From positions 124,001 to 188,000 of the forward strand of contig JAHZIX010000008.1 in the NCBI GenBank assembly GCA_022601195.1: a DNA stretch of 64,000 nt. The letters run 5' to 3'. Shown in pieces: positions 1,426 through 49,194 of the stretch (positions are counted from its first letter, which is position 1; every line of letters begins with the position of its first letter). The notes under the pieces are model-generated. The model was not told the DNA's origin. It ran no database searches and saw only the letters and a list, made by a program, of their open reading frames with translations. Origin of the DNA: Deltaproteobacteria bacterium (lineage in GTDB: Bacteria > Acidobacteriota > Thermoanaerobaculia > Multivoradales > JAHZIX01). The position numbers and the translations under genes are program-made.

Positions 1426-2811
1426 CTACCTAAGAGGTCGCAGCTCTTGCAGCATGGTCGGGATCAATTCGCTCACCGTAGGGTGGATGTGAACCGCCCT
1501 CTGGATTACGGCATAGGGTGCGTCGGCGTACATGATGTCCAAAATGCCGTGAACGACCTCGTCCCCTCCGATTCCCAACAAAGAAGCCCCGAGGATCCGC
1601 TCCGTCTCCCCATCGACGAGCACCTTCATGAAGCCCTGGGTCTCTCCCCGTTCCTTGGCCCGACCTACCCGCTTCATGCTCATGCGGCCCATCAGCACCT
1701 TTCTGCCAGAGTTTCGAGCTTGCTGTTCGGTCATTCCGACTCGGCCCAAGGGCGGGTCGATGAAAAGGCCGTAGCAGGCGATACGGTCCTGAACGGTGCG
1801 GTTCTCGCCGTCCAAAAGGTTCCCTGCAACGATCTCGTAGTCGTTGTAGGCGGTGTGGGTAAACCCTCCGCGGCGATTCACCTCCCCGAGAGCCCATACA
1901 TGAGAAAGGTTGGTGCGCAGCTGATCATCGACCGGAATATAGCCCCGCTTGTCGACCTCGATTCCGGCCTTTTCGAGACCGAGATCGTGAGTATTGGGAA
2001 GCCGGCCCACCGCCATTAGAAGGTGGCTACCGGAAGCCGTGGGAGCTTGTTCAGCACACTCCAAGCCGATAGAGACGCCATCCGAGTGCGCGCTTGCGGA
2101 AAGGCATTCGGCGCCCAGGCGTACCTCGATACCCTCTCCTTCCAAGATCCCGAGTATGGCCTCCGAAACGTCCGGATCTTCCCTCCCCACCAAGCGGTCG
2201 CCTTGTTCGATGACGGTCACCTCGCTGCCAAAGCGGCGGTACATTTGGGCGAACTCCAAGCCGATATAACTGCCGCCAACGACGATCAAATGCTTGGGGA
2301 GGAAATCGAGGTCCAGAATCGTGCTGCTGGTCAAGAAACTGACATCGTCCAACCCTGGTAGGTCGGGAACCCGTGGCCGAGCCCCCACGTTGATGAAGAT
2401 GCGGTCAGCGCTGATCTCACGCTCTCCCACCTGAAGAGTATTGGGACTCAAAAAGCGCCCATGGCCTTCGAGGACCGTCAGCTTCCCCGTCGACCTCAAC
2501 CAACCTTCGACGCCCTCCGTAGACTGCTTGACGATGGCATCTTTTCGCGCTCGCACCTTCGTCATATCCACCTGTACATCGCCTGGAATCGAGACGCCAT
2601 AGGTCTCTGCTTGGCGAGCCATGTGGGCAACTCGGGCACTCGCCACCAAAGCCTTCGTGGGTATACAGCCGACGTTGACACAGGTACCGCCGAAGCGGTG
2701 CCGTTCGACGATCGCGGTCTTCAATCCCTCCCCCGCGAGGCGCACCGCCAAGGAAGGGCCTGCTTGCCCGGTACCGATCACCACAGCGTCGAACGGAGTC
2801 ACTTCGGCCAT
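1426..2811 (-). CDS. FAD-dependent pyridine nucleotide-disulfide oxidoreductase (MerA/Lpd-like)
   Basis: A 461-residue class I flavin disulfide reductase. The FAD-binding site VVIGTGQAGPSLA is at residues 11-23, the redox-active disulfide GGTCVNVGCIPTK is near 41-53, a second dinucleotide-binding site (IVVGGSYIGLEFA) lies near 175-187, and the dimerisation domain ends in HIHPTVSELIP, which supplies the catalytic His-Glu pair in this family. There is no N-terminal metal-binding domain and no C-terminal vicinal Cys pair, so true mercuric reductase is unlikely even though such proteins are often given that name. The gene lies 33 nt after the SenA/EgtB-like gene on the same strand, so the two probably share a transcript. 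A thiol or selenol redox role is inferred from that context only. Confidence 0.9.
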   Translation of the reverse strand: MAEVTPFDAVVIGTGQAGPSLAVRLAGEGLKTAIVERHRFGGTCVNVGCIPTKALVASARVAHMARQAETYGVSIPGDVQVDMTKVRARKDAIVKQSTEGVEGWLRSTGKLTVLEGHGRFLSPNTLQVGEREISADRIFINVGARPRVPDLPGLDDVSFLTSSTILDLDFLPKHLIVVGGSYIGLEFAQMYRRFGSEVTVIEQGDRLVGREDPDVSEAILGILEGEGIEVRLGAECLSASAHSDGVSIGLECAEQAPTASGSHLLMAVGRLPNTHDLGLEKAGIEVDKRGYIPVDDQLRTNLSHVWALGEVNRRGGFTHTAYNDYEIVAGNLLDGENRTVQDRIACYGLFIDPPLGRVGMTEQQARNSGRKVLMGRMSMKRVGRAKERGETQGFMKVLVDGETERILGASLLGIGGDEVVHGILDIMYADAPYAVIQRAVHIHPTVSELIPTMLQELRPLR

Positions 2812-2844: not shown

Positions 2845-4155
2845 TCAACGGAGAGCGCAGGTTCGAAACCCTGCCCAAACGTCCCGCCGATCCGGTTGGT
2901 AGAAGTTGCGCCAAGTGTTGCGCAGCATGCGGAAACGAGTTGCCCAACAACCGCCGCGCAACACTTTGTGGTCACCGAACCACGGCTCCGAATAGTCCTT
3001 GTAGGGATCTGCTTCAAAGCCTGGATAAGGGCCGAAATCCGTGGCGGTCCATTCCCAAACGTTGCCCACCATTTGGCGAAGACCGGTCGGTGTATCTCCT
3101 CCCGGCAATGCTGTCACGGCGACCGACCCCTCGTAGAAGCCATTGACGCAGGCTCTTCCCTCCGGGGAAGCTTCCTCGCCCCAAGGATAGGTGTTTTTCT
3201 CCAAGCTCGAGGCCGCCATTTCCCACTCTGCCTCCGTAGGCAGGCGCCGGCCTGCCCAGCGGCAATAGGCATCCGCTTCGTACCACCCCACGTTCATCAT
3301 AGGAAGGAGAGGTTCGATCTCGACGAGGCGATCGTAGGCTCGGCGGCGCCAAGGTTCAGAGCCTTCCCGGCACCACGTAACAGGGTGTCTCGGTTCCGCC
3401 TCTTCCAGCCATTTTCTTCCCTCGTCACACCACAATTCCGGGCGCTGGTACCCGGCGTCCTCGACAAATTCCAGAAACTGCCCTTGGGTCACCGCTGTAG
3501 CTGCCATGGCGAAGGCTTCCACCCGCACCGTGTGAGCCCATTTTTCATTGTCGAAGACGAAGGAAAAACCGGGAGATGCGCCGAGTTGGAACGATCCACC
3601 GGCGAAGCCAACGTCGCCACCTAGGCCAGCCAAGCTAAGGGGGCTGACCGTATCGGGCTCCGGTAGATTCAGCCGGACCCCGAAGGACTCCGGAGGGGGA
3701 GCTGGATAGCCAAGGGTTTGGCGGGTATAGGCGAAAGCCTCAGCATGCATATCCTCATGAAAAAGAGCGAGAATGTGAAAGTAGACCTGCTCCGGGCTCG
3801 GTTCTCCCACCAGATGCTCTAGGGTGTCCTCCAGGGAGTCCTGCATATAGGCCAGGATCTTCTCCCGCCCCACCAGCCTCAAGTCCCAACGGGTGTCGTG
3901 GGGCACCGCCATGGAGTCATAAAGTACATCGGCTCGTTCGAGGAGTGACGCCTTCCCCCTCAGGTGCCGACGGATCCAACGCTCTTGGAACCAAGCAACG
4001 TGACCGATTTCCCACAGCAACGGATTGACTATCGACAGCTGAGGTCCTATGAGCTGCTCGTCATCGAGATCCTCCACCAAGGCGAGGGTTCGCCACCGGG
4101 CATCTTGAAGCGCCTTCGCCAGCTCAGTGGCGGAATAACGAGCCGTACTCTTCAT
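2845..4155 (-). CDS. EgtB/SenA-family nonheme iron enzyme (candidate selenoneine synthase)
   Basis: 436 residues: an N-terminal DinB-like helical domain followed by an FGE/SUMF1-type domain (about 190-436, with [17 protein letters not shown] and RGGCW). The likely iron ligands are H52 (in [13 protein letters not shown]) and H133/H137 (in [10 protein letters not shown]). Classical EgtB carries HEQQHQE at the latter site. As I recall, the HEDMH form with downstream YTRQTLG is typical of SenA, which joins hercynine to a selenosugar. Divergent selD, 168 bp away, supports selenium use. The alternative is an ergothioneine-type sulfoxide synthase. Membership of the EgtB/SenA superfamily is firm; the selenoneine assignment is an inference at moderate confidence. 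The gene is followed by a disulfide reductase in probable operon. Confidence 0.85.
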
Positions 4156-4323
4156 GAGTCTTTATTTCTGCGGTGAGATCGCTTTCCCAAGGTGGATCTG
4201 TTCTCCCAAGGTGAATGAGGGATTCCTTCGACAAGAGTGTACCGAACTCCCATCCCGCCAGGAACCGCGATAGTCTTGGCAAGCCCACTCTCGTGGATCG
4301 AATAGGAAGGGAGGTGATGATCG

Positions 4324-5385
4324 ATGGCAATCAAGAGCTTGTTTCAAAAGGCGACCCTGACCAGTCTGGCCAAGACCTGCGGTTGAGCGGCCAAATTGAG
4401 CCCGGTCGGGCTCGGTGAGCTCCTGGCAAGTCTGCCCAAAAACGAAGATCCCAACCTTCTGGTGGGTTTTTCTACCAGTGACGACGCTGCGGTCTATCGG
4501 CTCAGCGGCGAAACCGCTCTGGTGATGACCGCGGACATCATCACCCCACCGGTGGACGACCCGCACCTCTTCGGTCAGATCGCCGCTGCCAACGCCCTGT
4601 CGGATGTTTTTGCCATGGGAGGCAAGCCCTTGGCCTGCCTCAACCTGATCGGATTTCCCGCGGACAAACTGGGGCCGGAAGTCCTCCACGGCATGGTGGC
4701 TGGTGCTTTGACCAAAGTCACTGAGGCAGGAGCGGTTCTGGCAGGGGGTCACACCACGGAGGACGAAGAACCCAAAATGGGACTCTCCGTTACCGGGGTA
4801 GTGCATCCGGACAAAGTGTGGACCAACGCTGGTGCCCAACCGGGAGACGCCCTGGTGATGACCAAACCCATCGGCAGTGGCGTTCTGTTCAACGCCAACC
4901 TCAAGGGTTGGGTCTCCACAGAGGCTCTGGACACCTGCATCGCCTGGATCACCACCCTCAACAAGAGGGCCGCGGAAATCATGAGTGGGTTCGAGATCCA
5001 CGCCGCTACAGACATCACCGGTTTCGGTCTCGCTGGCCATTGCCTGGAGGTGGCGGAAGGGTCCGAGGCCAGCTTGCGCATCGACATCGATGCCATACCG
5101 GTGATGGACGAAGCTCTGGCCGTGTACCAGCGGGGGATGACCACCGGCGTCAATGCCGTCAATCGCCAGCTGGTGGAATCGAAATGGCGTTTCGAAAGGG
5201 AGTTACCCTTTTGGCACCAGGAGATCTTCATCGATCCCCAGACCTCCGGTCCCTTGCTCGCCGCGGTGCCGCCGGAACAGGCCGACGACCTGGTGGCGGC
5301 GCTACAGGATTCCGGCATCGAAGTCGCCCGCCGGGTCGGTACCGTGGAGCCCTTCGATGGTCGGAGCCGGTTGATCTTCGAGTAG
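4324..5385 (+). CDS. selD: Selenide, water dikinase, selenocysteine-containing
   Basis: SelD makes selenophosphate from selenide and ATP. Read from ATG 4324, preceded by a strong ribosome site (GGAGGTGAT, 4311-4319 region), the protein is 353 residues if the in-frame TGA at 4384-4386 is decoded as selenocysteine: LTSLAKTCGUAAKLSP, Sec21 and Lys24. These match the catalytic Cys/Sec and Lys of SelD (C17/K20 in E. coli). A start at the TTG after the TGA (4396) would drop both catalytic residues and the Gly-rich N terminus. An in-frame TGA at 4318 blocks any longer start. The rest is typical SelD: SDDAAVYRL, GGHT, ATDITGFGLAGH and DPQTSGPLL. It diverges from the SenA-like gene. A standard gene caller would truncate it. 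Confidence 0.95.
4395..4416 (+). promoter_or_regulatory. Bacterial SECIS-like hairpin in selD
   Basis: Directly after the Sec codon, GAGCCC (4398-4403) pairs perfectly with GGGCTC (4408-4413) around the loop GGTC (4404-4407). Two wobble pairs and one A-T pair extend the stem to 4395-4416. The loop begins 17 nt after the TGA. That lies inside the spacing known for bacterial SECIS elements, and the loop GGUC matches the G-U apical feature read by SelB. No bulged U is seen in the upper stem. It would direct Sec insertion. Confidence 0.75.
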
Positions 5386-46107: not shown

Positions 46108-46497
46108 TGGCTTCCCTCCCCAACTTGCTCGCTGAAGCTCTCGCTGCCAACAACCCCCATGGTCAGCTCTTGCTGCCGAGAACCGCTTCCCAATCAGCAA
46201 GGAAGGATTCTCTAACCTGAAAGATAGCCGGAATATAGCAGGCTTCGAATACAGGGGGCGAGGCAGACCATATTGGAAACCGTTTTCCTGAAGAGAGTAG
46301 TCCAACAGAAGAATCTCGACCGTCTGCTGTCGTCACCGAAAGGAGTTTCTGCAGGAAAACTGTAGATTCCAGGGCCTTGTTGACTAAGCGACTCGACCTC
46401 TCCGTTGAACCCCACCTCGACCCAAAAGAGAATCTGCGCCCCTTGAGCAGGCCAGGACGAACCAGGAGAATCTCTATATTCTTGGAAAGTTGGAATG
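46108..46497. other. Intergenic region between ECF sigma gene and tRNA
   Basis: 390 bp. A frame continuous with the sigma gene covers the left half but looks non-coding (no start with a ribosome site). Nothing else is recognised. Confidence 0.45.
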
Positions 46498-46575
46498 GTA
46501 CCGAGAGGCGGGCTCGAACCGCCGACCTCCTGATCCACAGTCAGGCGCTCTAACCAGACTGAGCTACCTCGGCAC
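46498..46575 (-). tRNA. tRNA-His (GTG)
   Basis: The minus strand folds as a full cloverleaf: acceptor GTGCCGAG/CTCGGTAC including the extra G-1 paired with C73, which is the tRNA-His identity mark; anticodon stem CCTGA/TCAGG with loop CTGTGGA (anticodon GTG); T-arm GGCGG-TTCGAGC-CCGCC. The 3' CCA is not encoded. It lies 91 bp after the egtD gene on the same strand. Confidence 0.96.
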
Positions 46576-46666: not shown

Positions 46667-47719
46667 TTAGGGGGCCGCAGGGACCGCTTCGAGGAGATTC
46701 TCGGAAAATCGGCATCCGGAGTCGAGCCAGTGGCGCTGAAATCGAAACCCTCCTCGAGTAGCGAGGGTGCTCAGCTGGTCGAGATCGTATTTGTGGGAGC
46801 TCTCCGTATGGATGCTCTCGCCGGCTTCGAAGCTGACTTCCAAGCTGAGCTCGCGGATCGGCACCTTTTGGGCCTTCCGGCTCACCAGATAGGCTTCTAC
46901 CCGCCCTAGAGAGACGTCATAGCGGACTTTGTAGTCGAATTGGGTGATATCGAACTCTCCCCCCAACTCCCGGTTGATGCGCACCAACAAATTGAGGGTG
47001 AACGCACGGGTGATCCCAAGGGTGTCGTCGTAGGCCGCCAGGAGCTCGCCTTGATCCTTCTTGAGGTCGGCTCCGAGCAGGAAGTGCTCCCCCGGGGCAA
47101 GGGCGCGGCGTACCTCCTCGAGGAGGCCCAAAGCGCTCGCTGCATTCAGATTGCCGATGGAAGAGCCCAGAAAGAGAACTAGATTATGGGTTCCATCGGG
47201 AGATCGCTCTTCTTTAGCCAGATAGTCCAAGGCTCGCTGGTAGTCCGACACGAACCCAGTGATGGAAAGACCGGGAAAAGCGGTCAACAACTCTCGGGAG
47301 CTTTTTTCGAGAGCGGACTCGGAAACGTCGATCGGTAGGTAGCGAAGGCTCCCTTGACGCTTCAGGATGGCCTCGATGAGGAATTTCGTCTTGGTGGAGC
47401 TCCCACTACCGAGTTCGATGAGGCGCAAGGGAGAGGGAAGGCAGTCCACTAGATCGCCACTGGAGGTTTCTAGGATCTCGCTCTCGGCCCGCGTCAAATA
47501 GTACTCCGGCACCAAAGTGATGGCGTCGAAGAGAATCGAGCCCAAAGAGTCGTAGAGTAACCGAGGGGGAAGTTTCTTGGGAGAGCGGCTCAGACCAATG
47601 CGCACGTCTTCTGCGAACCCTCCGGGAGCCTGCGAGGTCTCCAGCCGGAAGAGAGTCAAGCGATCGGAAACCTGTCGCCGTCTGCCTGGCGAGCGGGAAG
47701 ACTCCCTCGAGCCCGTCAT
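46667..47719 (-). CDS. egtD: L-histidine N-alpha-methyltransferase (hercynine synthase)
   Basis: 350 residues from ATG 47719; the ATGA overlaps the stop of the aroDE gene. It is typical of EgtD (DUF2260-type SAM methyltransferase): PKKLPPRLLYDSLGSILFDA, PEYYLTRAESEIL, LIELGSGSSTKTKFLIEA (SAM site), LPIDVS, LFLGSSIGNL and LLGADLKKD. EgtD trimethylates histidine to hercynine, the precursor of both ergothioneine and selenoneine. A SenA/EgtB-like enzyme at 2845-4155, over 40 kb away, could use it. No other pathway gene adjoins it. Confidence 0.92.
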   Translation of the reverse strand: MTGSRESSRSPGRRRQVSDRLTLFRLETSQAPGGFAEDVRIGLSRSPKKLPPRLLYDSLGSILFDAITLVPEYYLTRAESEILETSSGDLVDCLPSPLRLIELGSGSSTKTKFLIEAILKRQGSLRYLPIDVSESALEKSSRELLTAFPGLSITGFVSDYQRALDYLAKEERSPDGTHNLVLFLGSSIGNLNAASALGLLEEVRRALAPGEHFLLGADLKKDQGELLAAYDDTLGITRAFTLNLLVRINRELGGEFDITQFDYKVRYDVSLGRVEAYLVSRKAQKVPIRELSLEVSFEAGESIHTESSHKYDLDQLSTLATRGGFRFQRHWLDSGCRFSENLLEAVPAAP

Positions 47720-49194
47720 TTGGAAAGGCCCGCTGCCAGGCCAAGAGCTTCGCTGACAGCTTCCCGGGGCAACTCCCTCCCGGTCATCAGCCGGAATTGA
47801 ACCACCGCCTGGTGGAAGAGCACTTCCCGACCATCTACGGTGATCCACCCTCGCTCTTGGCTCTCCTGTACTAGAGCCGTCGGGGACTCGCCGTAAACCA
47901 TATCCACCACCATGGCCCTTTTTGGTAACCGATCCAGGTCGAAAGGTAGAGGATCTTCCTCGGAGCGACCCAATGGCGTAGCGTTGATGAACAGATCAAA
48001 GGCCTGGGGTTCCAGGTCCTCTAGCAGCAAGAAGGGAAGCCCTAAGTCGTAGGCTGCCCGCCTCCCCCGTTCGGCACTGCGATTTGCCATCACCACCTCC
48101 GCCTGTGCATGCAGCAGACCGACCGCTGCGGATCGACCAGCACCGCCGCAACCGACGACCACCGCTCGGCGCCCCTCGAGGGAAATACCTCTCAACCGCA
48201 ATGGCTCGACAATGCCCGCGGGATCGGTAGATTCGGCCTCCCACACTCCACTATTCCAAACCAGAGTGTTGGCTGCTCCAATGCGCTCCGCAAGGGGGCT
48301 CGACGCGCCGGCTACCGCCAGGGCTACTCGTTTGAAGGGGGAGGTGACGCTCAGGCCCCGTAATGGCAGACCGATGGCGCTCAAGGCCTCGCTCTCCACC
48401 ACCTCCAACCAAAAGTCGCCAAAAGACTCAGCATGAAAGGGGATGTAGAGAGCCGGTAAGCCCAACATGGAGTAGGCACGATTGTGAATCAGGGGTGACA
48501 ACGAGTGCTCCACCGGGCAACCGGCAATACCGAAGAGGACCTCTACCGTCGGAAGGTTGGGCAATCCGAAGTGACTCCGGAGTCGCTCTACCGTGGGCTG
48601 CCCTGGCGCTCCCGGCGCTCCTCCGGCAGCACCGTAGACCACTGGGGCCCCTAGATGGGGCGCCACCAGCCGGCTCCAAGCTCCACTCGCACCCGAAGCA
48701 AAGGACACGACATCCGAGCGCTTCAGTTGAGCCAGCATCTGTAGGGGCGCCAGCTCTTGTCCGGCCTGCTGAGCCTGAGGAATCAACTTGTAAAGCAGGG
48801 CTGGAGTCCCAGCCATTTTCGAGCAACGACGAGCCAAGTCGATGGGATCAGCAGCCGATCCGTGCCAGGACAGGATTCTCTGGGGTCCAGGAATGGCCGC
48901 CAACACTTCGGCACCGAGATCTCTATCCGCCTCTAGGTCGATCAAGTCGAATCCTGCCCGAGCTGCGGACACTAGGGCCTCAGCTCGGCGGGCCGCACCA
49001 CCACTGAACTGCCCGCCTTCGGCGGAGCTACGGAGGGTGTACAGCAACTGGCCTGGAAACTGGCTCCGGAGCCACTCCAAAGAGAGCTCACCCGTTAGAT
49101 CCGCCCGCACCTCCAGGATCGCAACCTCGTCGAGGTTCGCGGATGCCAAGGTATCGGCAGAGGTAAGGGTCGCAACAAGCTTAGGTTTTTGCAC
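47716..49194 (-). CDS. aroDE: Bifunctional 3-dehydroquinate dehydratase (type I) / shikimate dehydrogenase
   Basis: About 492 residues from GTG 49194, where the conserved part (KLVATLTSADTL) begins; TTG 49314 would add 40 unlike residues and the ribosome site decides neither. The N-terminal half (to about 215) is type I AroD: ILEVRADL, SWHG (His) and LLYKLIP (Schiff-base Lys). The C-terminal half is AroE: HSLSPLIHNRAY, VTSPFK (catalytic Lys), GAANTLV, VVVGCGGAGRSAAVGLLHA (NADP site) and INATPLG. It catalyses steps 3 and 4 of the shikimate pathway. Plants and some bacteria have this fusion. It is coupled to egtD by a 4-nt overlap. Confidence 0.93.
   Translation of the reverse strand: MQKPKLVATLTSADTLASANLDEVAILEVRADLTGELSLEWLRSQFPGQLLYTLRSSAEGGQFSGGAARRAEALVSAARAGFDLIDLEADRDLGAEVLAAIPGPQRILSWHGSAADPIDLARRCSKMAGTPALLYKLIPQAQQAGQELAPLQMLAQLKRSDVVSFASGASGAWSRLVAPHLGAPVVYGAAGGAPGAPGQPTVERLRSHFGLPNLPTVEVLFGIAGCPVEHSLSPLIHNRAYSMLGLPALYIPFHAESFGDFWLEVVESEALSAIGLPLRGLSVTSPFKRVALAVAGASSPLAERIGAANTLVWNSGVWEAESTDPAGIVEPLRLRGISLEGRRAVVVGCGGAGRSAAVGLLHAQAEVVMANRSAERGRRAAYDLGLPFLLLEDLEPQAFDLFINATPLGRSEEDPLPFDLDRLPKRAMVVDMVYGESPTALVQESQERGWITVDGREVLFHQAVVQFRLMTGRELPREAVSEALGLAAGLSK

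Follow-up and report, generated by a model that had tools for sequence, protein, structure and literature searches.

Two questions are raised by the gene at 4324–5385 of the window, the whole 64,000-nucleotide stretch of DNA that we analyzed: is its product, a selenophosphate synthetase (SelD), itself a selenoprotein, and which use of selenium would such an enzyme serve? The original prediction held that an in-frame TGA replaces the catalytic residue and that a normal start call truncates the gene. Sec-containing SelD is an already well-known selenoprotein type. As the prediction had stated, some SelDs carry Sec at the catalytic site; in one survey these were 19%, always with Sec at this single position (PMC4561486). 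The less expected part of our finding is that a Sec-selD stands back-to-back with senA, a gene for synthesis of the selenium antioxidant selenoneine. The features are collected in Table 1. The genome of the window is a draft assembly of 8.0 Mb in 52 contigs and is 94% complete.

Table 1. Coordinates of the selD gene, its decoding elements and the associated selenoneine genes in the window.
Feature	Position	Strand	Basis
selD, Sec-containing selenophosphate synthetase (predicted), 353 aa with U21	4324–5385	+	family match
Sec codon UGA (TGA in DNA; predicted), codon 21	4384–4386	+	aligns with Cys17 of E. coli SelD
ribosome-binding site GGAGGTGA	4310–4317	+	sequence and position conserved in relatives
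truncated ORF of the mechanical start call, TTG start, 329 aa	4396–5385	+	start not conserved
bacterial SECIS hairpin, core stem 4398–4403/4408–4413, apical loop GGUC 4404–4407	4395–4416	+	covariation, folding
senA, selenoneine synthase, divergent from selD, 168 bp between the genes	2845–4155	-	NF041186, 499 bits, cut-off 420
FAD-containing disulfide-reductase-type oxidoreductase (PRK06370.1-4), 33 bp downstream of senA	1426–2811	-	family match
egtD, hercynine synthase (match 46703–47614)	46667–47848	-	family match

The selD gene and its Sec codon

The TGA lies in frame with ATG 4324 and with the stop TAG 5383–5385, and the frame is otherwise open. Reading through the TGA as Sec yields a SelD with the N-terminus MAIKSLFQKATLTSLAKTCGUAAKLSP, which matches the NCBIfam selD family TIGR00476 over its full length (363 bits, cut-off 125) and NF002098 with 319 bits (cut-off 299). 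In E. coli SelD we take Cys17 to be the catalytic cysteine. Solved SelD structures align along the whole window SelD, and the TGA falls opposite this Cys17 (PDB 3u0o), in agreement with the predicted replacement of the catalytic residue.

With TTG 4396 as its start, a mechanical ORF call drops 24 residues, which is indeed the truncation that had been foreseen, and the gene needs to be corrected where ordinary annotation shortens it in this way. Taken at face value, the call would make the TGA a real stop and let SelD start downstream as a protein without its catalytic residue. We regard this as highly improbable, because the TTG is not conserved: the aligned codon is ATC, GTC, CTG, ATT, TTC or others in the relatives, with 10 different codons among the 40 rows of the alignment. 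The conserved start after the TGA, which the prediction itself had named as an argument against it, is absent from these 40 rows, while the upstream frame, the ribosome site and the TGA are all conserved. The covarying hairpin behind the TGA and the Sec machinery in the genome, both described below, speak against a downstream start as well. The strong ribosome site that had been noticed before the ATG is conserved in the window and four relatives; the in-frame stop seen just upstream at 4318 is present, though it is itself a TGA (TGATGA, 4315–4320) that overlaps the end of the ribosome site. In the five senA-selD intergenic regions of the same genomes, which are otherwise unalignable, GGAGGTGAT before the selD start is the sole long conserved block.

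For the conservation of the TGA we scanned species genomes with peptide patterns that avoid the Sec site, which gave 80 loci. The Sec codon is TGA in all 39 aligned relatives, which come from several phyla, and the motif CGU is invariant. Among the SelD loci with 57–82% identity (record titles: Acidobacteriota, Latescibacterota, Gemmatimonadota, Poribacteria, Desulfobacterales, Verrucomicrobiales and others) the codon is TGA without exception and stands within the motif CGUA[AS]K, and in the order to which the genome belongs each SelD of at least 67% identity contains exactly one TGA. A Cys-type SelD was looked for among the members of the CGU clade in tree and alignment, and none was found. 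Apart from the stop itself, nothing favors the reading of selD as a pseudogene, or of the TGA as a sequencing error or recent Cys-to-stop mutation. The codon is shared by 39 of 39 relatives from independent assemblies, was found with patterns that do not contain the Sec site, and stands in an otherwise intact frame. Chance, sequencing error and pseudogene are thereby excluded, and we consider this explanation refuted.

The window SelD resembles the known Sec-SelD/SPS2 proteins, for example those of Pasteurellales, in having Sec at the catalytic site with a bacterial SECIS directly downstream (PMC4561486). It differs from them in its clade, where the second residue before Sec is always Cys (CGU, residues 19–21, 4378–4386); the other aligned SelDs lack a Cys at this place. 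A Cys-Sec redox pair in this motif is possible.

The SECIS hairpin

The hairpin behind the UGA comprises 9 bp. The SECIS of the E. coli formate dehydrogenase is the comparison for GGUC-type loops, and the window hairpin is like it in this respect. Bacterial SECIS elements have a small apical loop with G in the first positions, 16–37 nt from the UGA (PMC13188914); the window hairpin, with its small G-start loop beginning 17 nt after the UGA, lies within this range. In isolation it folds with -14.3 kcal/mol (z -4.0), but in its 51-nt context it is not singled out by fold energy alone (z -0.8). Because fold energy is uninformative in the longer context, we used covariation. In the 40-row alignment 88% of the stem cells pair, and 24 cells show a double change, where shuffling gives 9.5 on average. 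The score for covariation is 0.308, compared with 0.183 in shuffles; none of 500 shuffles reached it, and slid controls of the stem gave far lower covariation. In each of the 25 rows where Ser precedes Pro, pairing is 6/6. Among the 15 rows with Asp or Glu at this place, 12 regain all six pairs through a one-base bulge; the Asp-type relatives depart from the consensus (PMC13188914) in that the lower stem is shifted by this bulge.

The Sec machinery of the genome

The prediction had implied that the whole Sec system must exist elsewhere in the genome, and this is what we found. The genome contains selA with 544 bits on contig C33, together with selB (337 bits, C24) and tRNA-Sec (69 bits, anticodon TCA (UCA), C13), each on a separate contig and unlinked to selD. 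The alpha subunit of formate dehydrogenase (FdhA), near C28:182954 (-), carries a TGA in frame where Sec normally stands (CAATUHAPTVAGL), followed by a GGUCU-loop hairpin that is placed as expected and, like that of selD in its longer context, not singled out by fold energy alone. With FdhA as a second Sec protein, we rejected SelD as the only selenoprotein of the genome; formate dehydrogenase was the one further case examined.

From the frame, the covarying hairpin and the machinery we conclude that selD is very probably a true selenoprotein gene with Sec at the catalytic position. SelB, bound to the hairpin just after the codon, would bring Sec-tRNA(UCA) to codon 21, the UGA, so that Sec would take the place of the catalytic Cys of Cys-type SelDs, and the resulting Sec-SelD would make selenophosphate from selenide and ATP. 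In the literature searched, which covers the field in part, we found neither a SenC with Sec nor any selenoprotein from Thermoanaerobaculia described.

The selenoneine genes around selD

What the original prediction had missed is that the divergent neighbor is SenA, i.e. that this is the selD of a selenoneine locus. SenB (409 bits, cut-off 300) is encoded on the same contig about 12 kb to the left of selD, outside the window, and the gene set of a sen locus, SenA, SenB and a SelD-type protein, is complete. The senB gene ends a gene run at C31:111516-116023 (L140:1516-6023) for a selenate-type ABC transporter, with a binding protein of TIGR04553 ('putative selenate') and genes resembling PhnC/PhnE; a transporter of this type also adjoins Sec-selD in other genomes (L153, L156, L157).

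Clusters of sen genes with a SelD-type enzyme are known, namely SenA-SenB-SenC in Variovorax paradoxus (PMC9814287, PMC10702425). As in this cluster, the genome of the window has SenA and SenB together with an enzyme of the SelD type, and EgtD is available for hercynine. The layout is different: senA and selD diverge, and senB belongs to a transporter operon at a distance of 12 kb. On the side of the window, the selenophosphate synthetase would itself be a selenoprotein, which may be a further difference. No EgtB above the cut-off was found in the genome, the sole high match being SenA itself, and SelU was likewise not found in the draft assembly, which at 94% completeness could miss it. Because SenA, SenB and EgtD are present and neither EgtB nor SelU was found, the hercynine made by EgtD most plausibly goes to selenoneine.

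The pairing of senA and Sec-selD recurs in five genomes of the order, that of the window and four others, in most of them with senB nearby, and in a sixth genome of the order senB adjoins Sec-selD. Loci titled Latescibacteria, Poribacteria and Gemmatimonadetes also have Sec-selD by senA-senB. A genome of the same genus contains two Sec-SelDs, one beside senA-senB and the other beside selB-selA. In a short-search tree the window selD clusters with the sen-linked copies (support 98), apart from the sel-linked copy. All members of the order with a sen-linked Sec-selD have selA. In other Acidobacteriota sen loci the stretches examined contained senA, in most cases together with senB, and no selD.

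Could the Sec-SelD lie near senA by accident and serve Sec synthesis only, with selenoneine not made at all or made from another source of selenophosphate? The distance of 12 kb to SenB and the unlinked selA and selB would fit such a view, as would the many members of the SelD clade that have no sen genes within the flanks examined. We nevertheless think it unlikely, given the divergent senA/selD pair in five genomes, mostly with senB, and the separate Sec-SelD beside selB-selA in the same-genus genome. SenA, SenB and EgtD all score above their cut-offs with no EgtB found, and no other gene above the SelD cut-off was found in the draft genome, in which a second SelD could be missed at 94% completeness.

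By its position selD would be the selenophosphate synthetase ('SenC') of the selenoneine locus, and a role of the window Sec-SelD in selenoneine synthesis is likely, judged from gene content and neighborhood. Because only one SelD was found, the enzyme is probably shared by SelA and SenB/SenA: most likely one Sec-SelD supplies both pathways. It would feed SelA, for the Sec-tRNA needed by SelD itself and by formate dehydrogenase, and equally SenB/SenA, for selenoneine from the hercynine that EgtD would provide as acceptor for SenA. Two uses of selenium, in protein and in a small molecule, would then meet at one selenium-requiring enzyme, and whether the syntheses of Sec and selenoneine compete and feed back on each other becomes testable, with the two Sec-SelDs of the same-genus genome as a natural comparison. 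One may speculate further, and here we are tentative and incline to doubt, that this Acidobacteriota group needs Sec decoding for its selenoneine pathway, the selenophosphate synthetase of which is a selenoprotein, that the Sec-SelD of the same-genus genome has diverged into two Sec enzymes, one copy for selenoneine and one for Sec synthesis, and that CGU forms a redox-sensitive Cys-Sec bond.

Two smaller observations concern the neighboring genes. A gene similar to that of the oxidoreductase downstream of senA occurs close to senA at one further locus from Acidobacteriota (L196), and the oxidoreductase may possibly act in selenide or selenoneine reduction. Finally, a tRNA-His gene (46496–46573, -) lies just downstream of egtD, histidine being the substrate of EgtD; this adjacency is probably a coincidence.
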